From NCBI GenBank assembly GCA_037783545.1, contig JBBELK010000572.1, forward strand, positions 186,001-250,000: DNA of 64,000 nt. Reading direction: 5' to 3'. Both the position numbers and the translations under genes were made by a program. This DNA comes from Henricia sp. BOLD:AAB3569. Lineage: Eukaryota; Echinodermata; Asteroidea; Spinulosida; Echinasteridae. Shown here one piece after another: positions 15,680 through 64,000 of the stretch. Each line of letters begins with the position of its first letter. The first letter of the stretch is position 1. The notes under the pieces are model-generated. The model did not search any database. It was not told the DNA's origin and saw only the letters and a list, made by a program, of their open reading frames with translations.

Positions 15680-16206
15680 TTAAAGATAGTATACATGATT
15701 TGGTAAACTGTTACAAATAGTTTTATCCCCCTGTGTGATTGAAGATATGCATGATTAAAACCAACCTGACCAAAAACCAGCTCCGTACTTCGTCTAACTT
15801 TAGAGAAAACAGTCAAAAAAGGGTTTGCAGTCATTTTGCCCCAAAACCACTTCGCCCTGAACCATTTTGCCCTGAACCACGGCATGTGCACGAAGTGGTT
15901 TTGGGGGCGAAGTAGCATTTGGGCGATGTAGTGTTTGGACGAAGTGATTTGGGGCGAAATGGCACTCGGGCGAAGTGGTTTGGGGGCGAAATAGTACTTG
16001 GGCGAAATGGTTTTGGGGCGAATTGAATTTTCGTCTCATGAGACAAAAACTAATTGTTTTACTCGTTTCTCAAAGACTATAGCACTTTAGACAAAACCAT
16101 TTCAGGGGACGTTTTCTACGGTCATCATATTTATATTGTGTACGTTAGGCGTAAATCTGTGAACATTTCTGATTTTCGAGATACCAATCATGTATACTGC
16201 CTTTAA
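15680..16206 (-). mobile_element. TTAA-flanked MITE, family M3, uninterrupted copy
   Basis: TTAA at 15680-15683 and 16203-16206 flank TIRs AAG-ATAGTATACATGATTTGG and its mirror (ccaatcatgtatactgc-cttt). The centre is a roughly 20-bp minisatellite built on cgaagtggttttggggcg (15840-16020), which gives frames rich in P-K-S-F-R-P. Its sister at 57637-63496 is split by the Helitron-like insertion, so this copy serves as the empty site. The equivalent insertion point lies between 15695 and 15696. Confidence 0.9.
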
Positions 16207-19020: not shown

Positions 19021-19523
19021 ACGAAGACCCAGAAGGGACATTTAAGTATTATGCTTTTTTTATTTTTAATACGTACGTACGTGATAATAGTACGTACGTA
19101 CGTGATAATAATAAGTACGTACGTATTATTATCACGTACGTACGTGATAACAATACGTACGTACGTGATAATACTACGTACGTACGTGATAATTTATTAC
19201 GTACGTACGTGATAATACTACGTACGTACGTGATAATAATACGTATACGTACGTATTATTATCACGTACGTACGTGATAATACTACGTACGTACTTAATA
19301 TTATCACGTACGTACGTATTAAATTATCACGTACGTACGTGATAAATTATCACGTACGTACGTGATAAATTATCACGTACGTACGTATTAAATTATCACG
19401 AACAAACGTAGTATTATCACGTACGTACGTAGTATTATCACGTACGTACGTACTATTATCACGTACGTACGTATTAAAAAAATTAAAAAGGAAAATACTT
19501 AAATGTCCCCTCTGGGTCTTCGT
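19021..19523. mobile_element. Foldback element built of ACGTACGTACGT palindromes
   Basis: 30-bp TIRs (19021-19050, acgaagacccagaaggga...; 19494-19523 its mirror with one mismatch) enclose about 440 bp. The interior is made of tacgtacgtacg palindromes separated by gataat, gataatac or attatcac spacers, arranged so that the left half mirrors the right half. The 60 bp outside each TIR (gtgttagtgtaa...ctgtt...gggaaat) resemble each other in direct orientation. Confidence 0.85.
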
Positions 19524-20397
19524 ATGGTAGTGTTAGTGTAACAGGTCTGTTGACTCGACGTTTTGGGAAATAGGGTGGTAGGGTTTTGCACGACTTTCTA
19601 CACTAACACTAACATATAATTGTGACCTCCGGGCCTTTTTACGAGCTTAACCACTAAATGATTGCAATTTTCAGAATCATCACGGAGCAAAACAATTTCT
19701 CAATTGTGGGTAGAATGTAAGATCAAACACATTTATAAGTTGTGCTGAAAACTGAACCTCAATTTACTGAGAATTACGAAAGTTTTAAAATAATCCAAAT
19801 TGACACTACCCACTTCGTTCATATTTACTTTTAACAGATCTGTTACACTAACACGGTCTGTTACACTAACACGGTCTGTAACAAGAGCTGTTGAACTAAC
19901 ATGAGATGTAACACTAACACGTCCTAAACACCATATTAACATCAAGTTAACACGGTGTTTGTTCTAAGGGCACAGTTCTGATTAAGTTAACAGATGTGTT
20001 ACACTAACACTAACACGTAATACAGAAATGTGACTTCGCCCTGTGTAGAGTAGTGAATTACATGTAATATGGTGTTAACACCGTGTGAACATATCTGTTA
20101 ACATGGTTTTAACCTGGACATTGAGTTAGAGGTCGAGATTAATGCCGTGTTAACATACCTGTTAAGGGGAATGGACGAGAAAGTGTAGATTCGTTAAAAA
20201 GAATGGGCGAGGCGAAGTCGAGCCTTTTCTTTCCTACACTTTCGAGGCTATTTGTACACTTTCGAGGCTATTCTCCGACTTAAGCCATTCCACCATCGAG
20301 AACAAGATAAAAGGAGCCAGAAAGTCATTCTGTCACTAATTAGTGTAGATTCGTAAGGAACAAAATAATTACGGTACGTAAACAAAAAATATTTCCG

Positions 20398-21080
20398 CAC
20401 CATTGTCACCCAAAAATCATTATATCCGCACCATCGTGTCAGAAAAATATTATGTCCACACCATTTTGTCCGTTTGTACCATTATGCCTGCACTACTGTG
20501 TCCATTTATACCATTCTGTCTGCACCATTGTGTCCGTTTGTACCATTATGTCCGCACCACTGTGTCCCAAAACAATTATGTCCGCATTATTGCGTTCCAA
20601 AAACCATCTTCTCCGCACCATTGCGTCCGTTTGTGCCATTTTTTTCTGCACCGATGTGTCCGCAGCATTTCTTCCCCAGAAACAGTGTCCGCAACATTGT
20701 GGCTGAAGAAACCATTGTATCCGTTTGTGCCATTATGTCCGCAGCATTGCATCCCAGAAATATTGTGTCCCAGAAACATTGTGTCCCAGAAACATATCAT
20801 GGCCATTGTCATTATGTTCGCCGCATTGCGTCCCAGAAACATAATGGTTTCTTCAGCACCACTGTGGCTGAAGGAACTATTATGTCCGCACCATTGTACA
20901 CATTTGTGCCATTATGTCCGCACCATTGTATCCGATTGTACCATTATGTCCGCACCGTTGTTTCCGTTACTGCCATTATGTCCATACCATTGTGTCCATT
21001 TGTACTATTATGTCCGTACCCTTGTGTCCCTTTGTGCCATCGTGCCTGCACAACTGCGTCCGACAAACCATTTGCGGACA
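20398..21080. repeat. Minisatellite of accattatgtccgcaccattg words, copy 1
   Basis: Irregular 20-25 bp units such as tatgtccgcaccattgtgtc and cgtttgtaccat tile about 680 bp and recur at 22385-23065 in the duplicate. Translation gives C-P-H-H-C or V-R-T-I-V-S repeats in all plus frames, the sign of repeat DNA and not of a Cys-rich protein. The same words form the array at 28557. Confidence 0.88.
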
Positions 21081-22384
21081 CAATGATATATATGGACATA
21101 ATTACCCTGTACATACCTTTGTTATTTGTAAAGGATATAAACTACAAGTGCGACTATAGCATAGCATATGAAAAAAGGGTTACAAATAGTGTGACAAAAT
21201 GCCTTTCTAAAATCCCCGTGTACAAATTTCCAATACAACGCTCGTAACCGGGACGTACGTGATAATACTACGTACGTACTTAATATTATCACGTACGTAC
21301 GTATTAAATTATCACGTACGTACGTGATAAATTATCACGTACGTACGTGATAAATTATCACGTACGTACGTATTAAATTATCACGAACAAACGTAGTATT
21401 ATCACGTACGTACGTAGTATTATCACGTACGTACGTACTATTATCACGTACGTACGTATTAAAAAAATTAAAAAGGAAAATACTTAAATGTCCCCTCTGG
21501 GTCTTCGTATGGTAGTGTTAGTGTAACAGGTCTGTTGACTCGACGTTTTGGGAAATAGGGTGGTAGGGTTTTGCACGACTTTCTACACTAACACTAACAT
21601 ATAATTGTGACCTCCGGGCCTTTTTACGAGCTTAACCACTAAATGATTGCAATTTTCAGAATCATCACGGAGCAAAACAATTTCTCAATTGTGGGTATAG
21701 AATGTAAGATCAAACACATTTATAAGTTGTGCTGAAAACTGAACCTCAATTTACTGAGAATTACGAAAGTTTTAAAATAATCCAAATTGACACTACCCAC
21801 TTCGTTCATATTTACTTTTAACAGATCTGTTACACTAACACGGTCTGTTACACTAACACGGTCTGTAACAAGAGCTGTTGAACTAACATGAGATGTAACA
21901 CTAACACGTCCTAAACACCATATTAACATCAAGTTAACACGGTGTTTGTTCTAAGGGCACAGTTCTGATTAAGTTAACAGATGTGTTACACTAACACTAA
22001 CACGTAATACAGAAATGTGACTTCGCCCTGTGTAGAGTAGTGAATTACATGTAATATGGTGTTAACACCGTGTGAACATATCTGTTAACATGGTTTTAAC
22101 CTGGACATTGAGTTAGAGGTCGAGATTAATGCCGTGTTAACATACCTGTTAAGGGGAATGGACGAGAAAGTGTAGATTCGTTAAAAAGAATGGGCGAGGC
22201 GAAGTCGAGCCTTTTCTTTCCTACACTTTCGAGGCTATTTGTACACTTTCGAGGCTATTCTCCGACTTAAGCCATTCCACCATCGAGAACAAGATAAAAG
22301 GAGCCAGAAAGTCATTCTGTCACTAATTAGTGTAGATTCGTAAGGAACAAAATAATTACGGTACGTAAACAAAAAATATTTCCG

Positions 22385-23065
22385 CACCATTGTCACCCAA
22401 AAATCATTATATCCGCACCATCGTGTCAGAAAAATATTATGTCCACACCATTTTGTCCGTTTGTACCATTATGCCTGCACTACTGTGTCCATTTATACCA
22501 TTCTGTCTGCACCATTGTGTCCGTTTGTACCATTATGTCCGCACCACTGTGTCCCAAAACAATTATGTCCGCATTATTGCGTTCCAAAAACCATCTTCTC
22601 CGCACCATTGCGTCCGTTTGTGCCATTTTTTCTGCACCGATGTGTCCGCAGCATTTCTTCCCCAGAAACAGTGTCCGCAACATTGTGGCTGAAGAAACCA
22701 TTGTATCCGTTTGTGCCATTATGTCCGCAGCATTGCATCCCAGAAATATTGTGTCCCAGAAACATTGTGTCCCAGAAACATATCATGGCCATTGTCATTA
22801 TGTTCGCCGCATTGCGTCCCAGAAACATAATGGTTTCTTCAGCACCACTGTGGCTGAAGGAACTATTATGTCCGCACCATTGTACACATTTGTGCCATTA
22901 TGTCCGCACCATTGTATCCGATTGTACCATTATGTCCGCACCGTTGTTTCCGTTACTGCCATTATGTCCATACCATTGTGTCCATTTGTACTATTATGTC
23001 CGTACCCTTGTGTCCCTTTGTGCCATCGTGCCTGCACAACTGCGTCCGACAAACCATTTGCGGAC
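22385..23065. repeat. Minisatellite of accattatgtccgcaccattg words, copy 2
   Basis: Duplicate of the array at 20398 with a one-base deletion that moves the long open frame between registers. This again argues against coding. Confidence 0.88.
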
Positions 23066-23247
23066 ACAATGATATATATGGACATAATTACCCTGTACAT
23101 ACCTTTGTTATTTGTAAAGGATATAAACTACAAGTGCGACTATAGCATAGCATATGAAAAAGGGTTACAAATAGTGTGACAAAATGCCTTTCTAAAATCC
23201 CCGTGTACAAATTTCCAATACAACGCTCGTAACCGGGACGGCCTAAA

Positions 23248-27238: not shown

Positions 27239-30200
27239 CTGCATGTGGAAATGGAGAAAATGGGAGTTGGGACAAAATGTTGAATTATATCAACCCAGAA
27301 AATAAAATTGAGCAACGCGGAGTGCAACGATGAGATTTCACTTTACTACCGTACCGGTACGTCGGTAAACACTGCGAGCTACTCCACATACACATCGTGA
27401 CGTCCATGGGTTACTGCTTGGCTACCACAAAGACAACATCTGTGGTTGTTGTTGTTGTTGTTAATTTATGGCATATCCGGCAACTAAGGCCCTTTATGCC
27501 ATCAACTACTAGTATACGGTTTTAGCTTAAAGGGACACACCGGCTTTGTTGGGCTATTTTGGGCTCGAAATAGACCCATACATTATTCTGAATGCCCTTC
27601 CGAAATAAACTGAACATATCTTGAAAAGAAACCACGGAATTTTGCCGTTTTTGAGCAATTTTCAAAAAACAGAGGTCACGTGACTTTTCGAAACCAGAAT
27701 CTGGTTCCAAAAAGTCACATAGTCTTGCGAGTTAGTTTTGTGTCCAGCCGCATGAATGTTTTCTACTGCAGAACTGCACCAAATTCAACTCTGATTTACC
27801 CCCAATATTTATAAGATATTGACAAAAGAGAGACTATTTCTTCAAGTATGAAACAAAGTTGAACATATGTCTGAAAATTCGAACATAAATGTTTGTTTCG
27901 AGAGTGCGGAGAACGGGAGCGAGCGCGTGCTACGGCAGGCTACCGTGGAGTGTAGGATATTTGCCCCGCGCAGCACGGCAAATAGCCTGAGTCCACACAG
28001 CCATACGTGTGTTGCTTCGGTGTACGTTTGTGCATGAAGACAAAACATGATGCCAACTCCCGGCAAAGGAAAACGGAAATTCCTATTCGGTCGTCCGGGC
28101 TGTCTAGTGAAATCGTGAGCAGACAATTGGAGATATCCTGAGTAGGAGAAGAGCGAATCGTTTGTGACAAAGTCGTCAGTGAGGCTCGCGCGTAGTTGGA
28201 ACGGCTGGTAAAGCGTATAACCCGTATTCTGACCGTTTTGGTTAATTTTGCACTTCTTTAGTAAATTACCAATAATTTTTCACAACGACCATCAAAAAAG
28301 TATTGTCAATGCTGCTACATCTCTAAATCAGTAGGCCGGTGTGAACCTTTAACTATACTTTATTATCAAATTGAGATGACGAAGAAGGAGTTGCAGTTTT
28401 AGAAGTGGGAGGATAACCCCCAGAGAATTACCCAGGGGAAAATCCACGCGGTCAAGTAGGGACTGCAAACCCAATCCACATACACGCCCCGGATTCGAAC
28501 CCGGGACGTAAAAGGTAAAAGGCGAGGAAAGAACCATTACGCCAACCCGACCGTCCCACAACCATTCTGCATGATTGAACCATTATGTCCACACCATTGT
28601 GCCCACACCATTGTGTCCCATTGTACCATTCTGCATGATTGAACCATTATGTCCACACCATTGTGTCCACACCATTGTGTCCCATTGTACCATTCTGCAT
28701 GATTGAACCATTATGTCCACACCATTATGTCCACACCATTGTGTCCCATTGTACCATTATGCATGATTGAACCATTATGTCCACACCATTATGTCCCATT
28801 GTACCATTCTGCATGATTGAACCATTATGTCCACACCATTATGTCCACACCATTGTGTCCCATTGTACCATTCTGCATGATTGAACCATTATGTCCACAC
28901 CATTGTGTCCCATTGTACCATTCTGCATGATTGAACCATTATGTCCACACCATTGTGCCCGTTACTGCCCTTATGTCCGTACTATTGTGCCCATTTGTAC
29001 CATAATGTTTGAACCAGCCCTTTTCATTTTGCGTCCACAGCTCCGGGGTTACTTCTCTTCTCAGTTAACCCCCACATCCAACCCCACCTCCATTCCCCCA
29101 TCATCAAGTACAAAGCTTTTTTTTTTGGCGCGAAAATGCTCAGTGTGAATCCATCTACACTGAGCCTTTTCGCGTGTCGCTTTCAGAAAACAAACGGTTT
29201 GGATTGAAATTGGAGCTAAACAACACACTGAAAATCACTAATACTCCCAATTTGATTTTGTGGTTTATAGTAAGTCGTTTTACTCCAAATTCCCTCAAGT
29301 TTGTTAAAGCGACGCGCGTCGAATTTACGCACCAAAATGGCTCAGTGTGAATTCACTGTTACTGAATATACAATGAATTGCCGTGTTCTACATTTGCATA
29401 CATTGCACACATTTTGTGTTTTTATCGTCCAAATTACTTAGTTTTGGGACGAATGTTCCTTCATGCGACAGAGGAAAAAGGACAGTTCAGCCAGGTTAAA
29501 AACTGCTTTGTATCTTTGCTTAGGGCATACCTGCGAGAGCTCCTCCGGCAACTTCCCCGATCGCACCGAAAACTCCCAGGGTACACCAGGCCCGGCTGGC
29601 AATCTTACTGTCGAGGACCTCCTCCGATAAATAAAGATTCATACCGACCATCGTCCCAATACACAGACCGTTAACCACGGCCAAACACAAAAGACAGGGA
29701 TAGTTAGTTGAAACCACCGGGTCTAACATAAACGCAGCAACATTGACAGTGCCGAGGAGGATATACATCTGTACAGGTTTGAGGACTTCGAAGTGCAGTA
29801 TTGGACTGTACAAAATCCGACCGACTAAACTGCCTACTCCACCCGCTGTGGAGAGGAGACTGGCCCACTGACTTTCGAACCCTCTTGCCTCTGCGTGGGG
29901 AACTAAATAGATAACCCAGGCAGCGTACAAACATGCCGTTGTAAAAGCGGAAAAACAATACACTGAAAACATTGGCGCATCTCTGAGCACGTCCAAGGAC
30001 AGAACTGTGCAGATGCCTTTAACGGCCTTTTTACACCAGTACCAAAGTATGTTGTTGTCACGGTGAACGGTCTGCTGAGAGTGTTTAGTATTTATCTCGT
30101 CATTGTCACGATCATCTGAGACAAACGCCATATAGGTTGGTGGTGGTGGCTTCATCAAAGCCCCAAGAACGCAAATGTTGGCATTCAAAGCTGTAACTAT

Positions 30201-33200
30201 CATCAAGGCCCATCGCCATCCGTACAGAGATATCAAGAAGTCCACCAGTGGAGGGTATATCATGATCCCGAAAGGCACCCCCACGCCCGCAATTGCGAAG
30301 AGAAGCGACGAATTGGGGCAATACATCAGCAGAGCAGTAAGAGGCGGTATGTAGGTCATCGAGACGCCAATCCCTGTGTAACATTAAAACATATAAAGGG
30401 TAATTGTATTCTTTAAAAGGGGGTGTGCTTTGTTTACACACACGCAAGGCAGAAATTCACCAATAGTTAAATAGAAATGATAACAAAAGCAAATTAACGA
30501 ATTATAATTAATTGCTCTTTTCAAAATGGCAAAATAGAACTGATTCCAATTGTCCGATACAATTACCCCTTCTGAGATGGTATATTTTTATAAGGTAAGT
30601 TACTAAAGATAAACTTATGTAAATATGTTTGCACAAACAATTGTTTACAATGGCGAACGAAACCAGGCCCCGGACTACCGTGGTGCTATGGCTTCGCTTT
30701 CCGTGCAATATGGCCAGGAAACCAGCCTAAATAGGGCAGTGGCTTTGCACAATTTCATCAAAGCATAGACAAAGTATTTCATTGTGACGTGTGACCAATA
30801 GTCTATACAACGAAAACTCTCAACATGTAATTGTTTTTATTTACAAAAACTCTGGAATTTAGGTGTGCGCCTAATCATCGTTTCTTTTTTACGACGTCGC
30901 TTAGTATGGCAAACAGCGTGCGGTTGAATCTTTCAATCATGCTGTCCAAATGAGGATCGTATCAAGTGAAACTTGTCTTCTGCACACACACCAATAGGCC
31001 GTATTCCTGAACGTGGAGGGCGCTGTCAAGTGGTCCGCGCCTGGTCCGCGCTAGTCCAGATTCTGGACTATATTATTGCGATATTGGATCGTAGCGCGGC
31101 CGACTATAGAGGGCGGAATATCGATATTATTTGGACAGCGCATAATATAGTCCAGAACTTAACCTCCAGTTCCCTGAGAAATTTCAGGGAACTATAGCTC
31201 CGCCCACCTAGTCTGATTGGACGCAGCGCTTATCAATCATGTGTGTGAGGCGCGCCGAATAATCGACGGTCGGGAATCGATTCTCGAAAATTGTCCGCGC
31301 AATACATCGCATAGTCATTATAATATTATAATGTATACATATCGGCCTCCTATATGCCGGCTATGCGCTGTGCATTGTGAAACGAACAAACATACAGTAT
31401 ACACCTGCATGCGTGGCTATAGCCACGCATGCAGGTGTATACTGTATGATTGTATAGTTGGAAAGAGTTGAGAAGTTGATCAGATTTTGTATTCAAAATT
31501 ACTCATCAAGCATATCTGTACGTGCAGATTTGATGAAAAAAATATATATATAGGAGTGAGAAAAAAAAGAAGATTTTGTGCGGAAACACTTCTTCATCCT
31601 GCCGTGCTCAAATTTTCTCACTTATAATTTCAGGTTTTTCCCATCAAATCAGTGCACTTCATTTTAAAGAAACAAATCTTATCTACTAAATTATGACCTC
31701 TTGACCTTAAAAATAGCTATTTTTAAGGTCAAGAGGTCAGAATTTAGTAAAATAAAGACACAGTACGTGTGCTTTGTGTATTTTGTTGCATGGTATTTAA
31801 GAAAAATTTACATGGTAAAATCCTTTTCCTACCTCCATGATAAAATAAAGCCAGTTATTAGTTCCAACAAAAGCAGGTGTACTAAATTTGTTGACTAATA
31901 TATGGCCACTTTAGTACAAAATCCTCTAGTACATGTGGGCATGAGGAAATTTAGGCTCTATACACAATAGGCAAAAATAGGCCCATATATACTGCAGTTT
32001 CTATTGCAGTTATACCCATAAGAAAAACCCGACTAAAAGTGTAGATAACAATAACAAACTTTTAAACATCACATAATTTTTTCCCGTGTAATTGTACATT
32101 TGTGGAAAAAATTGCCAACTAAAGTATTTCAACAAGTATTCAACACAAAAACCATACATGTATTTTTTTAGGTTTTCTGAAGTATTACTGCCTGCATGCA
32201 TCATTTGCTGAAATTTCTACCAGGCATTTTATCAACATTATTCTTTTAAAGCTTGACAGGGTGCTCCACATTACCACCTTTAACAAATTTGCAAAGCAAA
32301 TTGCACCCTGTTTTAAAAGCCATTAGCTTTTTGTTTATATACAGACATTGGTGCTGTTCATTCCCTTTTTAAATGAATAAAAGACAACATTTTCAACTTT
32401 CAACAATTTGTTTACAAAAACTAAGAGAAAGTATAGAAAAACATGAATTCAAACTGGAGTTGTGGCAAACTGCTGCGTTTTTTATTTCCATTTTTTTTTA
32501 CAAGCAACATGTAAAACAAACTCAAATGATGCAGCCATGCATGGGTTACAACTTAAAGTTTCATCAAAGTTGGAGAAAATGGTGCAATATTTTGTGCAGA
32601 GTTTAGAGTGATCCTGTGTTTGCCTGATGTGATGTCATAACTTTGCTCATGAACATACAAATTCAAAAGCTTGATTTTTTAATACCATTTCAAGGACCCC
32701 TCAAATATTTGTTTCCACTGTTCCAATATTATGGACCCATAAAGAGGCAGGTTGGGGGGGGGTGGGGGGGGGGGGGGGGGGGGGGGGGTCGGGGGGGCGT
32801 GTCAGCTCTTACTCCATTGCAACAATAGAAAATGTACATGTATTGCATTATATGTGTCTTCCTTTCTGAGCATTCTGACATACATGAAATTATATGTATG
32901 AATGATCACTGCATGCCCCGATTTGAAAAATCACTGACTATATATATATATAGTGTTATGTTTTTGAAGATGGTTCATTGTCTGTGCACTTTATCTCACC
33001 CTGAAAATATGTTACATTTGAACAGAAAATGCGGCATACCTTTCTGATTTGCTCTGCAGCTTTTTGGAGAAATTCCTGTACAAAAAAGGGGCAATTTTTA
33101 CAACTTCCTGATCTGTGCAAAGCTGCATTAATTCTACACTAATACATTTTGTTTTCTACAAAGTAATTTTGCTCCAAATTTAATTACGGCAGATGCAGAA

Positions 33201-56345: not shown

Positions 56346-57239
56346 AAATATTACCTAACTGGAAATTAATGTCGCTGCCAACTTGTAAGGTTTACATACA
56401 ATTTTTAGGGATTGGTCGAGAATTAAGAAACAATCAGCTGTTAAAAGCAAATGCGCCACAAAACCTTTAGTGGGTGGCCAATGTACTTCCGTCGGCATGA
56501 AATGTTAATTTTTGGCAATTGCTTGGACTATCTTCTATAGGATGTTTTAACTTACCAAAACATGTTGCTGCCATTATTTTCTGACTAGTTTCTAACAGGT
56601 TAATCTTATTTTCTATACCATAAATCTCCTGTATAAGGCACACCATTGTTCATGTATAAGGCGCACCCACAACTGCTGACAGTCCGTTTTGATTGGGTAG
56701 ATAAATATAAAGTTACATTGAAAATATAATTTTTCCTAATGGGTCATTCCATGTCAATTCAACGAGCTTTTAGACCTGACCCTCACAGATTGAAATCAAA
56801 TTCGGTGTGCTGATTGGACTCCTTGAGAAACCCCGAGAACTAAAATATTATATCATTTGGTCAATTAATTTTTGAGATACGGGTCAACGAACTTTGACTA
56901 ATTAGCATGACCTGCTATGTTTGGACAGTTATATCTCTAAAAGTAATGGACCTAGAGGGATAAACTTTACGTCATTTAAAGCTCTTGAAATGGCCTTCAT
57001 TTTATTTTTAAAAAAACATCAAAATTGTATCTCGTACCACAAACAAGTTATGCGTATTTGTCAAAATGCGTAATTTGTTTTTATTTGTTAGCTTAAGATG
57101 TAAGGAACCTTTTCAGAAAGATTTGGGATGGGCACTCTTACAGTTTTTGAGTTATGATAATCAATAACATGTAAATAATATGTAAATAACAAGTACATGC
57201 TATTTACATGGTATTTACATGTTATTTACATGTTAGACA

Positions 57240-57566
57240 ATGTTATTATTATTATTTATTATTATTTATAATTATTTCTTTCTGGTATTCATACTAATGA
57301 TTCCTCAATAGTGCTCATTGCACTGTCACTCGTAAGCGTGAGGAAACCCATGAAGAATTAGAATTATAAATAGCCAGAGACATTGGGGAATCCCCTTGCT
57401 CTTCACAATATAATACTCTGGGATCTTTAGAGTGCGTTACCATTACCTAACACACTGGACCAACGGCTTTACATCCCTTCCGAAGGATGGAGCAAGTGTG
57501 GTTGAGTGCCTTGCCCAAGGGCACAGGTACCGCAGCCAGATTCGAACCCGGATTCGAACCCGCATG
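57240..57566 (-). mobile_element. tRNA-derived SINE in the foldback loop
   Basis: Minus strand: doubled gggttcgaa box B words, ctgtgcccttgggcaaggca, ccttcggaagggatgtaaag, gtaacgcactctaaagatcc and a tail of ataataataaataataata. Same style as the SINE at 47022. Confidence 0.8.
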
Positions 57567-58042
57567 TTAAAATTATCATAACTCAAAAACTGTAAGAGTG
57601 CCCATCCCAAATCTTTCTGGAAATGTTCCTTACATCTTAAAGGCTGCAGTATACATCATTGATAATCTCGAAAATCAGAAATGTTCACATATTTACGCCT
57701 AACTTACACAATATAAACATGATGACCGTAGGAAACTTCCCCTAAAATGGTTTAGTCTGAAGTGCTATAGTCTTTGAGAAATGAATAAAACAATTATTTT
57801 TCGTCTCATGAGACGAAAATTAAATTCGCCCCAAAACCATTTTGCCCAAGTGCCATTTCGCCCCAAACCACTTCGCCCGAGTGCCATTTCGCCCCAAACT
57901 ACTTCGTCCAAACACTACATCGCCCAAATGCCACTTCGCCCCAAAAACACTTTTTGCTCAGGTTGGTTTTAATCATGCATATCTTCAATCACACAGAGGG
58001 ATAAAACTATTTGTAACAGTTTACCAATCATCTATATAATAA

Positions 58043-58343
58043 AGTAAGACTTCTGTCACGTGACCCTGACGAATTCGTACCCTGTGCCGGCGCCGCCGCG
58101 TGTGCGACCCCGCGGTTGTCCCGTGCTTTTCTGTGCCGCGGCCGATCTTGATTTGGGAGCGGGGTTGCGAGTAAGAGTTCTGTCACGTGACGCGCCCATG
58201 GGCGCCGCCATCTTTGCTCTCGAAAGTAAGACTTCTGTCACGTGACCCTGACGAATTCCTACCCTGTGCCGGCGCCGCCGCGTGTGCGACCCCGCGGTTG
58301 TCCCGTGCTTTTCTGTGCCGCGGCCGATCTTGATTTGGGAGCT
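58043..58343 (+). repeat. 118-bp GC-rich direct repeat in the Helitron 5-prime part
   Basis: agtaagacttctgtcacgtg ... cttgatttgggagc at about 58043-58160 and 58226-58343, spacing 183 bp, with one visible difference (gaattcgtacc against gaattcctacc). Open frames here are CpG-rich artefacts. Confidence 0.88.
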
Positions 58344-60184
58344 TTGATTTTCACCCCAAAATTTACAGCTGCGACTGATTGTCCACACCGGTAGATTTCG
58401 GCTTATGTTTGGTGTCGATATTGTACGTGAGGTAGTATTTTGGTGGCTTTTCGGTTGTCCAATCGACGACGTTGTTACAACGCAACATACCCTTCCAAGC
58501 CGTGTCAGGCATGATGTGAATAGTAACCTTGAGGGCTTTCGGGCTCACATAACTAGACACGATTTGAGGTTAAAGGGCATATGTCGTTTCATTGGACGTA
58601 TCTCTTCACGTGGTTGAACCCACATGTTGCGGGGTCATAAATAAGCATCTGTCAAGCCCTGGCCTCGGGGAAACTGTACAGCGAATCGGGAGGGAAGAAA
58701 ATGATCATTTACATATACACAAACATTACAAATGCTTTGTACCGTTGGACTGATTGTGATTTTGTCATTATTCAAGTTTTTGTAATCATAATGATATTTA
58801 TGGTGTTCATTATGGTTGTTTAATTTGTATACTGGTACAAAACAAGTCCCTGAGTTTGTTTATTTTTCGGCAGGTGGCAAAAAATTCTGTTCATTTTGAT
58901 TCAGCGTTTGAATACAGACCATAAACGCTATGTTGTACTTCTCTGACACTATGAGCAAGAACATGTACATGTTCATTGTAACCCCATTGTTAGTAACAAT
59001 GGTGTGTGCCTAATTTCCATTGTTAGATGTTCATAGTGTGACTAGACCACCTTTGTCGAGTCTGAAACAATAACTTCCACAGGACTACATTGCACAATGG
59101 TAGTCTGGAGGGGTACTCGGTCAAGTTTTCTGCTGCTCAAAACCGAGTGGTTCAGTCGAGACTGGTCGCCTGGTGCATGCTCTTAACGGAGTAGTCCAGT
59201 TGAGGCCGGTTTCCTGCGCTGCTCGCTTTTGAGTGGTTTAGTTGAGGCTAACTCCAGGACTTATGCAAATACAAGTATATCATGCAACTGGTCTATTGCA
59301 TGATGTATATGTTTAAGGAGAGTGACCATGCACATCACATTTTGTCCCACCCCTTTTCCTATGGGTTTTGAGATTTTTTCACAATATCAATTCATTACCA
59401 TTCTAAAATCTCGAGTTCTCAATTCGTATCACAGCCTTTTGCGTGTTTGACTTGAATTATATAATAAGGGTATACTGCCGTAGTGCCTGGACTAAATGTT
59501 GTTTAAAATATAATGCTATTGGGTGGCTTGCACGCAGCAGGTAATAAGTGCAAAATCAAAACCGATAAAAGAGAATGACATAAAGCAACTGTACTGTTAG
59601 TTGATGGGCATGCACTCGCGTGCATCACGTAGCAACAACAACATTTGAAGGCAACAGTCATGGTGCAAAGAATACGTGAACATTAAATTATTTCAGCACT
59701 TGGTCAAAGTGAATACTTTGACGTTCCTAGAAAATTATCAGTTCAATTTATTTTTGAGGTGCCACACCCAAAACGCACGGACTGTATAAAATCAACTTTA
59801 AAAATACATGTAGGCCTACGTGTCTAAAAATATTCTTTACAGGGCAAAATGAAGTAGGCCTACCCCTCTAAACTGGTGGTCGCCCTCCCTCTCTGCCCCC
59901 TCCTGGGATCTCAATTTCCGCTCTGCTAAGCAGCGTTACAATCCCCTGAGGAAATACGCAAATCTGTAAAAGTAGGCGGGTGTTACGCGTATACCGAACG
60001 CACAAGTTAGTCATCTTGATAGAATTTAATCAATTGTGCCATGTTTTGCTAAAGAGAAAAACAATGATATGCTTTCCAAAAATTGGAATTGCTGTTTGTT
60101 CTTCATTGACTATCCCTTCCTACCGACATTATTGGCAACGTTACAGAATTACGTGCATATTACATGGATTTTCTCGCAAGTTCA

Positions 60185-60247
60185 TGTGCCTTACAGCTCA
60201 GCTGGTAGAGCATCTTCCCGGTGAGTCAAAGGTTTCCGGTTCGAATG
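60185..60247 (+). pseudogene. tRNA-like segment in Helitron unit 1 (second copy near 62632)
   Basis: gccttacagctcagctggta (D-arm), gagcatcttcccggtgagtc and ttccggttcgaatgatgatg (T-arm-like). The anticodon stem does not pair properly and the acceptor stem is poor. The copy in unit 2 (about 62629-62695) has the same defects, so this was a relic before duplication. Confidence 0.6.
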
Positions 60248-61043
60248 ATGATGAGGCCCTTACGATTTTTCCCTCATCCCAACTTGAAGTTTGGTCGTTT
60301 AAAAAGAAAAAAATCTGCAGTTACCGCGCTCATTAAAATACCAAAACACAATAGAAATTCTAGGCGTACTACAGACATTCCATAGGCGGTATCTGGGCAC
60401 CGCCAGGAATTTCCATTGTTTTGGTATTTTAATGAGCGTGGATCTGCCGCAGATTTCTTACTATGGTCGCGACAACTCGACCTATCCTGTACGACTTATG
60501 TTACCTTTTCTCAGATCGGGTCACAAATAAACATTTGCAGATTTCCCAGCAAAAACACATTTTCAGTCCATCTCCAAGACCTAACTTGCCACCACATATA
60601 CAAGCATTCTTTAAAACGTAAACTACGCTTTTTAAAACTTTCGCTATGCATCTTTATTCGCATCGCCACGACTGCCAGTGATAAGACTGATAAAGTCATT
60701 GATCGCTACATTATGTATTGGGAATCTCGAACAATCATAAATGTTCACAGACCCTAAAACAATTATTGTCCGTGTCATGAGACGAACCATTGGCGGTCCG
60801 CCAATTATTCAACTCGCGGTTAGGCGTAGACTTGCCCAAGTTGACTCCCGTGTTTGGTCCGCAACGCGCAGCGCACAGTGCGGCCTGCGGGCCCTCGGCC
60901 TGTCTAATCTCATATCTTCTGTTTATTCTGCTGTCTCAGAAAGTCTTCCGATGCATGATAATTATGTGGAATATGTGTAAAATATGTTGGTCGAAAACCA
61001 GTCGCCCTAGCAGATGGCCGCGCGAAGCGCGGCCATCTGCTAG

Positions 61044-63480
61044 TCTATTGAAAGGTCAACCTATATACCCTGCATGCTTGCTCTAACCACATTCCATCTG
61101 TCAAGCTTGCCAGAACCCACATGTTGCGGGGTCATAAATAAGCATCTGTCAAGCCCTGGCCTCGGGAAAACTGTAAAGCGAATCGGGAGCGGAGAAAATT
61201 ATCATTTACATATACACAAACATTACACATGCTTTGTACCGTTGGACTGATTGTGATTTTGTCATTATTCAAGTTTTTGTAATCATAATGATATTTATGG
61301 TGTTCATTATGGTTGTTTAATTTGTATACTGGTACAAAACAAGTCCCTGAGTTTGTTTATTTTTCGGCAGGTGGCAAACAATTCTGTTCATTTTGATTCA
61401 GCGTTTGAATACAGACCATAAACGCTATGTTGTACTTCTCTGACTAGACCACCTTTGTCGAATCTGAAACAATAACTTCCACAGGACTACATTGCACAAT
61501 GGTAGTCTGGAGGGGTACTCGGTCAAGTTTTCTGCTGCTCAAAACCGAGTGGTTCAGTCGAGACTCGTCGCCTGGTGCATGCTCTTAACGGAGTAGTCCA
61601 GTTGAGGCCGGTTTCCTGCGCTGCTCGCTTTTGAGTGGTTTATTTGAGGCTAACTCCAGGACTTATGCAAAAACATGTATATCATGCAACTGGTCTGTTG
61701 CATAATGTACATGTTTAAGGAGAGTGACCATGCACATCACATTTTGTCCCACCCCTTTTTCTATGGGTTTTCAGATTGTTTTTACAATATCAATTCAGTA
61801 CCATTCTGAAATCTCGAGTTCTCAATTCGTATCACAGCCTTTTGCGTGTTTGACTTGAATAATAAAATAAGGGTATACTGCCGTAGTGCCTTTCATGGAC
61901 TAAATGTTGTTTAAAATATAATGCTATTGGGTGGCTTGCACGCAGCAGGTAATAAGTGCAAAATCAAAACCGATAAAAGAGAATGACATAAAGCAACTGG
62001 ACTGTTAGTTGATGGGCATGCACTCGCGTGCATCACGTAGCAACAACAACATTTGAAGGCAACAGTCATGGTGCAAAGATTACGTGAACATTAAATTATT
62101 TCAGCAGTTGGTCAATGTTGTTTTCCTTTTCATGTCTCATTTCAAAGTGAATACTTTTACGTTTCTAGAAAATTATCAGTTCAATTTATTTTTGAGGTGC
62201 CACACCCAAAACGCACGGACTGTATAAAAAAATCAACTTTAAAAATACATTTAGGCCTACGTGTCTAAAAATCTTCTTTACAGGGCAAAATGAAGTAGGC
62301 CTACCCCTCTAAACTGGTGGTCCCCCTCCCTCCCTGCCCCATCCTGGGATCTCAATTTCCGCTCTGCTAAGCAGCGTTACAATCCCCTGAGGAAATACGC
62401 AAATCTGTAAAAGTAGGCGGGTGTTACGCGTACCGAACGCACAAGTTAGTCATCTTGATAGAATTTAATCAATTGTGCCATGTTTTGCTAAAGAGAAAAA
62501 CAATGATATGCTTTCCAAAAATTGAAATTGCTGTTTGTTCTTCATTGACTACCCCTTCCTACCGACATTTCCGGCAACGTTGCAGAATTACGTGCATATA
62601 CATGGATTTTGTCGCAAGTTCATATATGTGCCTTATAGCTCAGCTGGTAGAGCATCTTCCCGGTGAGTCAAAGGTTTCGGGTTCGAATGATGATGAGGCC
62701 CTTACGATTTTTCCCTCATCCCAACTTGAAGTTTGGTCGTTTAAAAAGAAAAAAATCTGCAGTTACCGCGCTCATTAAAATACCAAAACACAATAGAAAT
62801 TCTAGGCGTACTACAGACATTCCATAGGCGGTATCTGGGCACCGCCAGGAATTTCCATTGTTTTGGTATTTTAATGAGCGTGGATCTGCCGCAGATTTCT
62901 TACTATGGTCGCGACAACTCGACCTATCCTGTACGACTTATGTTACCTTTTCTCAGATCGGGTCACAAATAAACATTTGCAGATTTTCCAGCAAAAACAC
63001 ATTTTCAGTCTATCTCCAAGACCTAACTTGCCACCACATATACAAGCATTCTTTAAAACGTAAACTACGCTTTTTAAAACTTTCGCTATGCATCTTTATT
63101 CGCATCGCCACGACTGCCAGTGATAAGACTGATAAAGTCATTGATCGCTACATTATGTATTGGGAATCTCGAACAATCATAAATGTTCACAGACCCTAAA
63201 ACAATTATTGTCCGTGTCATGAGACGAACCATTGGCGGTCCGCCAATTATTCAACTCGCGGTTAGGCGTAGACTTGCCCAAGTTGACTCCCGTGTTTGGT
63301 CCGCAACGCGCAGCGCACAGTGCGGCCTGCGGGCCGGCGGCCTGTCTAATCTCATATCTTCTGTTTATTCTGTCTCGGAAAGTCTTCCGAGGCATGATAA
63401 TTATGTGGAATATGTGTAATATGTTGGTCGAAAACCAGTCGCCCTAGCAGATGGCCGCGCGAAGCGCGGCCATCTGCTAG
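61044..63480 (+). mobile_element. Helitron-like element, unit 2 (tandem, shorter)
   Basis: Starts TCTATTGAAAGG immediately after the CTAG of unit 1 and ends with the same 17-bp hairpin and CTAG (63444-63480), followed by host T. From 61113 on it matches 58616-61043 of unit 1 with few changes, including a loss of about 95 bp near 61443 between ctctgac/gtgtgac words and a small insertion near 62115. Its first 70 bp do not match unit 1. Confidence 0.75.
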
Positions 63481-63851
63481 TGTATACTATCTTTAAGCTA
63501 ACAAATAGTTTTGACAAATTTTGACAAATACGCATTTTTGCAAAGGTTATAAATTTATATAACTTTTTTGTGGTACAAGATACAATTTTGATGTTTATAA
63601 AATCAAGCCCATTTCAAGAGCTTTAAAATGATGTAAAGTCTATCTCTCTAGGTCCATTAGTTTTACTGTCCAAACATAGCAGGTCATGCTAATTAGTCAA
63701 AGTTCGTTGACCCGTATATCAAAAATTAATTGACCGAATGACATAAAATTGTAGTTTTCGGGGTTTCTCAAGGAGTCCAATCAGCACACCAAATTTCATT
63801 TCATTCTGCGAGGGTCAGGTTCAAAAGCTCGTTGAATTGACATGGAATGAC

Positions 63852-64000
63852 ACATATGGCGGCAGGTATAGTATGCATATTATGCAAATTTGACACCTTT
63901 CCACCAAATATATTTTGGTAAACTTTTAGTATTGTGTTACAGAGACTTTACTAGAATGCATACCCCTTACAAAATGGAACCCGATAACTTTGATCTTCGT
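63852..64000. other. Right edge of window, nothing recognised
   Basis: Short AT-rich flank outside the foldback element. Confidence 0.4.

Follow-up and report, generated by a model that had tools for sequence, protein, structure and literature searches.

Helitrons that adjoin one another head to tail raise an old question: are they rolling-circle concatemers, or the result of one insertion after another? We analysed a transposon nest that bears on this question in a 64,000-nucleotide stretch of DNA (the window) from the sea star Henricia sp. BOLD:AAB3569, namely positions 186001-250000 of contig JBBELK010000572.1 (C572) in the 740.7-Mb genome assembly GCA_037783545.1. A foldback element was entered by a miniature inverted-repeat transposable element (MITE) of family M3, and this M3 by two adjoining Helitron units. 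A short interspersed nuclear element (SINE) sits in the foldback loop. We are confident that the nest is real and that its layers were laid down in the order foldback, M3, Helitron. The joins, the empty sites, this order and the differences between Helitron units in copy number and subtype are direct observations. The two units of the Helitron "tandem pair" probably represent two events, not one. The features of the nest and its empty reference, in window positions, are as follows.

56741-57165, plus strand: left arm of the foldback element, with terminus GGGTCATTCC and an unfilled TTAA at 57093-57096
57246-57563, minus strand: SINE-like retroposon in the foldback loop, with an AATAAT-type tail
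57574-57640, minus strand: inner part of the right foldback arm, ending in the first TTAA copy (57637-57640)
57641-58030, plus strand: left part of M3, reading AGGCTGCAGTATAC after the TTAA
58031-61043, plus strand: Helitron unit 1, 5' end TCTATATAATAAAG, 3' end CTAG with a hairpin
58948-59038, no strand assigned: inverted-repeat element of about 90 bp, CACTATGA...TCATAGTG, inside Helitron unit 1
61007-61043, plus strand: 3' hairpin of unit 1, a 17-bp stem including the terminal CTAG with a 3-base loop, letter-identical to the end of unit 2
61044-63480, plus strand: Helitron unit 2, TCTA followed by TTGAAAGG at 61048, ending in CTAG
63444-63480, plus strand: 3' hairpin of unit 2, the same 17-bp stem including CTAG
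63481-63492, plus strand: right end of M3 past the Helitron, TGTATACTATCT
63493-63853, minus strand: second TTAA copy (63493-63496) and outer part of the right foldback arm
15680-16206, minus strand (the reverse of the nested copy): uninterrupted M3 copy, the empty reference, with the Helitron site at 15695|15696

The entry of M3 into the foldback element is seen most directly by comparing the two arms. When 56743-57165 was aligned with the reverse complement of 57574-57640 plus 63497-63851, 372 of 397 positions were identical and the join was free of gaps, with a single TTAA kept; the 51 gap columns fall elsewhere. The preliminary description of this DNA had claimed this insertion at TTAA, with the left-arm TTAA at 57093 as its empty site, and both claims hold. 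Its alignment had ended the inner segment at 57636, which drops both TTAA copies and leaves a gap of exactly four bases, but the flanks do join. Each arm contains four TTAA sites. In another foldback copy (L036, C119:45299) the corresponding TTAA also holds an M3, oriented the opposite way relative to the arm; this is an independent insertion at one of these four sites. The foldback element itself spans 56741-63853 once its GGGTC termini are included. It has long inverted arms and a short loop and is repeated in the genome (66 matches listed, the best 40 of 971 candidates having been scored). Clean 4-bp target duplications were found in three of five distinct two-ended copies (CTAT at L006, GGCT at L007 and AAAG at L008).

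The entry of the Helitrons into M3 was read from the uninterrupted copy. Alignment of 15680-16206 with the reverse complement of 57637-58030 plus 63481-63496 gave 382 of 406 identical positions and a gap-free A|T join, as the preliminary description had expected for the site 15695|15696. Nearly all of the 125 gap columns form one block: with 410 bases versus 527, the nested M3 falls 117 short and lacks this middle part. A 1-base gap three bases from the join is an extra T peculiar to the 15680 copy, which occurs in none of the 18 other M3 copies with the end shown (15 read CCAATCATG, and three differ otherwise). M3 is abundant, with 3499 first-look candidates, of which 40 were scored. TTAA is duplicated at both ends in the nest; in other copies it is present at 12 of the 12 left ends shown and at 16 of the 18 right ends (not L031 and L040). 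The terminal repeats of three M3 copies (L026, L035, L037) carry short GGCCTA-like insertions. Judged by its target and termini, M3 would be a Kolobok-like TTAA MITE: TTAA-AGGCAG and TTAA-AGATAG carry the terminal AG (RR) of the T2-MITE/Kolobok type as defined in PMC6004289, whereas the ends AGGCA and AGATA do not fit the AGGRR motif given there for T2-MITEs proper.

The Helitron pair reads A|TCTATATAATAAAG...CTGCTAG|T at its outer limits. Its ends, TCTATATAAT...CTGCTAG, show the 5' TC and 3' CTRR of Helitrons, and insertion between A and T without target duplication is seen against both the M3 reference and copy C, described below. The base after the family 3' end is T in 32 of 33 cases (G at L079), and the base before distinct non-abutting 5' ends is A in five of six (G at L046). 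The final 37 bases are common to both units; the hairpin of unit 2 folds at -25.9 kcal/mol as DNA, with a z of -8.3 against 200 shuffles. The pair thus resembles canonical non-autonomous Helitrons in its 5' TC, 3' CTAG, A/T insertion, 3' hairpin and lack of target duplication. The canonical hairpin usually lies some bases upstream of CTAG; here, as a variation, the 17-bp stem takes in the terminal CTAG.

The two units have different 5' regions. In unit 1, bases 18-138 of the 5' region are repeated once, at 193-312, and the interior is its own; relatives of bases 312-509 are found at L052 and L054 (83-87%). Six loci (L043-L048) represent a long subtype, in which 740-761 bp separate a TCTATATAAY 5' end from TTGAAAGG. 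Since unit 2 has TTGAAAGG only four bases in, this is most simply read as a canonical junction CTAG|TCTATATAA from which about 750 bp just inside the 5' end would then have been lost. The preliminary description had presented a tandem pair that entered M3. Its exact closure at A|T is borne out, but the pair is probably two events, with two subtypes joined at CTAG|TCTA. We place the boundary between them at 61043|61044, and the ends of the foldback element also shifted by a few bases. The ~90-bp inverted-repeat element is restricted to unit 1 of copy A, being absent from unit 2, from the units of copy B and from other family copies covering the place. The nest had been called four-level. Foldback, M3 and Helitron are three deep, with the SINE as a side branch; it is the ~90-bp element that supplies a fourth link.

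The SINE, also noted in the preliminary description, is flanked by the target duplication ATGTTA at 57240-57245 and 57564-57569 and has a simple-repeat tail. Among the loci compared it has only two relatives, both partial (L040, 92%; L006, 79%).

How the layers are ordered in time can be read from further copies on the host contig. A block of ~56-71 kb is present on C572 as three tandem copies, starting near 209425 (window 23425), 280397 and 336723, and the triplication reaches ~370000 (L009-L021).

Copy A: the nest of the window, 56741-63853
Copy B, C572:294720 to about 311240: foldback, SINE, M3 and Helitron, with outer Helitron boundaries as in A
Copy C, C572:367789-369226, 125 kb downstream: flanks, foldback and M3 in the same TTAA as A, with no Helitron and no SINE

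Copy C is a paralogous empty site for both the Helitron and the SINE, and at the SINE site it reads a single uninterrupted ATGTTA. Because of the nesting, and because copy C has the foldback element and M3 without the Helitron and SINE, the order is foldback, M3, Helitron, as first proposed. The SINE and Helitron insertions both fall between the split of C and that of A and B, in either order. Divergence between A and C is 5.1% upstream of the foldback, 4.1% in its left arm and 6.3% just downstream; between A and B it is 0.4-0.5% around the nest and 1.6% upstream. The foldback arms diverge by 8.75% (35/400) in A, or 6.3% (25/397) with another aligner and gap treatment, and by 9.4% in C. These values agree with the order of the layers, though the clock is weak. 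Copy B has a private 5.8-kb inverted-repeat element in its M3 (C572:295848-301625), with inverted ends of about 1 kb. Identity between the A and B blocks is mostly 97-99%, rising to 99.945% over 10,875 bases (C572:258020-268894 versus 314366-325240), pointing to a recent exchange or to an artefact of assembly.

The events would then have run as follows. A foldback element with arms of about 420 bp inserted, and an M3 MITE entered a TTAA of its right arm. The ~56-71 kb block would next have been duplicated, copy C being the first to split off. In the A/B lineage the SINE would have entered the loop, with a 6-bp duplication, and the Helitrons would have entered M3 between A and T; unit 2 may afterwards have been shortened by about 750 bp close behind its 5' end. 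After the split of A and B, private events would have followed: the array change and the 5.8-kb element in B and the 90-bp insertion in A.

Among 25 independent 3' ends of the family that were examined, five adjoin the 5' end of another copy (C572, C117, C648, C32 and C184/C133). The 25 are what remains of 33 ends when eight that share their following sequence with another listed end are merged (C684 with C809, C142 with C553, B with A, C133 with C184, one C7 end, and three of the four C233/C62 ends); a partial 34th match, C293:687075, was excluded. As 40 of 174 candidates were scored, with a query crossing the junction, this sample may lean toward abutting copies. The other junctions read TCTATATAAC (C117), TCTATACAATTAAAG (C648 and C32) and TCACAATTAAAG (C184/C133). 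In C648 the long subtype is joined to the TCTATACAATTAAAG subtype, so that the 5' subtypes differ in both pairs with both units typed (C572 and C648). A pattern search with up to three mismatches for a junction followed by the TCTATATAATAAAGT subtype, blind to other 5' subtypes, found one place, C117. In the scored sample a full-length match across the pair junction occurs in the window only, so there is no sign of the pair spreading. A general preference for TC sites was rejected: without the five abutting ends, six of 20 distinct 3' flanks start with TC, which is near chance. The abutting rate looks far above that of random insertion among AT sites, a judgement rather than a computed value. 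Such a rate would point to steering toward resident 5' ends, or to recombination of circles into residents. Four other Helitron 3' ends (L068, L079, L080 and L083, in C233 and C62) have a common following sequence, GTCAATGAAATGG..., and belong to a longer composite element or to duplications.

Copy B shows what may become of such a pair. It holds four Helitron units of ~2.05 kb each, compared with two in A. The three junctions between them have all been cut short in one place, the equivalent of window 60993 continuing at 61371, with 377 bases missing across CTAG|TCTA. Units 1 and 2 of A (A1, A2) and those of B (B1-B4) differ by 0.54% for A2-B4, 0.74-0.84% for A1 to B2 or B3, 1.39% for A1-B1 and 0.2% for B2-B3. 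The unit tree groups A2 with B4 (support 0.95) and A1 with B2/B3 (0.997), so that in their 3' ~1.1 kb A1 and A2 are not sisters. This fits an ancestor of two or more units followed by unequal exchange, with A having shrunk or B having grown.

Several observations count against our reading. All evidence comes from a single assembly. At the Helitron site copy C reads CCAATCATGTATAGTATACTATC, and copy A with the Helitron removed reads CCAATCATGTATACTATC, so that C has an extra GTATA. Clean 4-bp duplications were not seen at L004/L005, nor at the nested foldback element (TAAT/ATAT), and the lower of the two arm divergences in A, 6.3%, overlaps the divergence between A and C. B1 is mosaic, and support for the deeper branches of the unit tree is low (0.05-0.76), so copies have exchanged sequence, and A could have contracted from an array of more units. 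Across ~2 kb the distance A1-A2 (2.03%) is a little smaller than A2-C60 (2.22%) or A2-C648 (2.63%), the only two outsiders compared, which weakens a two-source origin. No open frame of at least 170 aa occurs in 58031-63480, and no family search of the genome was made for a Rep-helicase or transposase partner. With regard to the layers, the extra bases could mean that the Helitron was formerly present in copy C, which would then not be a pre-insertion site; putative somatic excision of Helitrons has been described in maize (PMC2267711). However, the SINE is also absent from C, where the single ATGTTA makes C look like the older state for two independent insertions, and the M3 copies L026 and L035 carry other short insertions at the same palindromic spot, with no Helitron at that position. 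For this reason the GTATA is read as local slippage and an excision footprint was rejected; we regard past loss from C as very unlikely. It is more conceivable, though still doubtful, that A and B are two haplotypes of one locus placed consecutively by the assembler. They differ by only 0.4-1.6% around the nest and by 0.06% over 10.9 kb, and near-identical loci elsewhere (C809/C684, C553/C142, C285/C32, C184/C133) hint at retained haplotypes. Against this, the contig has no N across 186001-372000 and shows three block starts, as a tandem triplication would. Whichever holds, the order of the layers stays the same. That the whole nest is an assembly chimera, a worry raised at the outset and one for which the repeat-rich region speaks, is, as far as one assembly can tell, extremely improbable: the joins lie at exact transposon target sites, all of them recur in B, and the M3 join recurs also in C.

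For the origin of the pair, three routes were weighed. A rolling-circle concatemer formed by 3' read-through could have entered M3 in one event, its units diverging later. The CTAG|TC head-to-tail junction is that of Helraiser circles and of reported arrays (PMC4778049, PMC5876387), the restriction of the junction match to the window is compatible with a one-time event, and over ~2 kb A1 and A2 are a little closer to each other than A2 is to C60 or C648. But the 5' regions differ and each has relatives elsewhere (L043-L048 for unit 2; L052 and L054 for the interior of unit 1), the 3' ~1.1 kb of unit 2 differs from C293 by 0.86% and from unit 1 by 1.53%, and the C648 pair likewise consists of unlike units. 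A plain concatemer is improbable, and the least likely of the three. Alternatively, a Helitron circle may have joined a resident Helitron by homologous recombination, leaving CTAG|TC between two complete chimeric units. Exact head-to-tail circles are known intermediates (PMC4778049), and such a route allows different 5' subtypes and would help to explain the five abutting ends among 25. The crossover was, however, assessed by pairwise distances alone, and the 5' mosaic of unit 1 can be explained without it; we consider this route possible but rather unlikely. Consecutive insertion at the A|TC boundary of a resident Helitron is given about an even chance. A more specific proposal, which we consider rather unlikely, is that Helitrons of this family are steered to resident 5' boundaries: the A|TC nick that the transposase makes at a resident 5' end would accept the circle of another element, giving arrays of unlike units that could expand by unequal exchange into satellite-like arrays.

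Other features of the window and the sample were noted. An imperfect palindrome, which may be a small element captured earlier, lies in both Helitron units (window 60316-60440 and about 62758-62882). Close to it a stretch at 60195-60255 resembles a tRNA, but ARAGORN called no gene in 57000-64000, the SINE interval included, and a tRNA gene in the Helitron was rejected. An RNA gene in the nest was likewise rejected, because the ten Rfam hits at E up to 1 include none at the gathering score and lie mostly on inverted repeats. Nothing seen suggests a function of the nest beyond transposition. Elsewhere in the window, 19268-21255 and 21253-23240 are head-to-tail repeats with a period of 1,985 bp and 99.8% identity, and an open frame of 287 aa at 29520-30383 on the minus strand matches MFS_1 (PF07690, E 1.9e-18). 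Five pairs of loci are near-identical (L055/L056, L059/L060, L004/L005 and L070/L071, each across different contigs, and L075/L076), and are retained haplotypes or segmental duplications.

All kinds of element in the nest are already known. The foldback element is like others of its type in its long inverted arms, small loop and 4-bp duplications in three of five distinct copies. Adjacent Helitrons have been reported head to tail in the bat Myotis lucifugus (Pritham & Feschotte 2007, as cited in PMC2267711 and PMC5876387) and in maize, where CTAG is likewise followed directly by TC at a G/T junction and the pair described also consists of unlike elements (PMC2267711). For such neighbours that paper discusses tandem replication and consecutive insertion, the latter using the A|T formed by the host A and the resident 5' T, and the same two explanations are given for three tandem copies in Metarhizium acridum (PMC5148889). 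Maize Helitrons are also described as preferring to land near or into other Helitrons (PMC3288121, citing earlier work). Fusarium Helitrons resemble unit 1 in having a short repeated 5' segment (<200 bp) and a single 3' end, but are of the non-canonical Helitron2-like type (PMC5148889). The present locus departs from the maize and bat cases in that about 750 bp are missing from unit 2, beginning after its first four bases, and in that a sister copy carries four units, their junctions shortened. Helitron-linked satellite-like repeats are described in oysters (PMC8268682, PMC7492417), and the pair, with its two-unit and four-unit sister copies, suggests how a satellite-like array might arise from two adjoining transposons. 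This locus combines genuine empty sites on a single contig with a sister copy whose number of units differs, and adds evidence that Helitrons of unlike type can abut. Because C572 itself supplies an empty control for most layers, the relative timing of these element families and of two block duplications can be read without a molecular clock.

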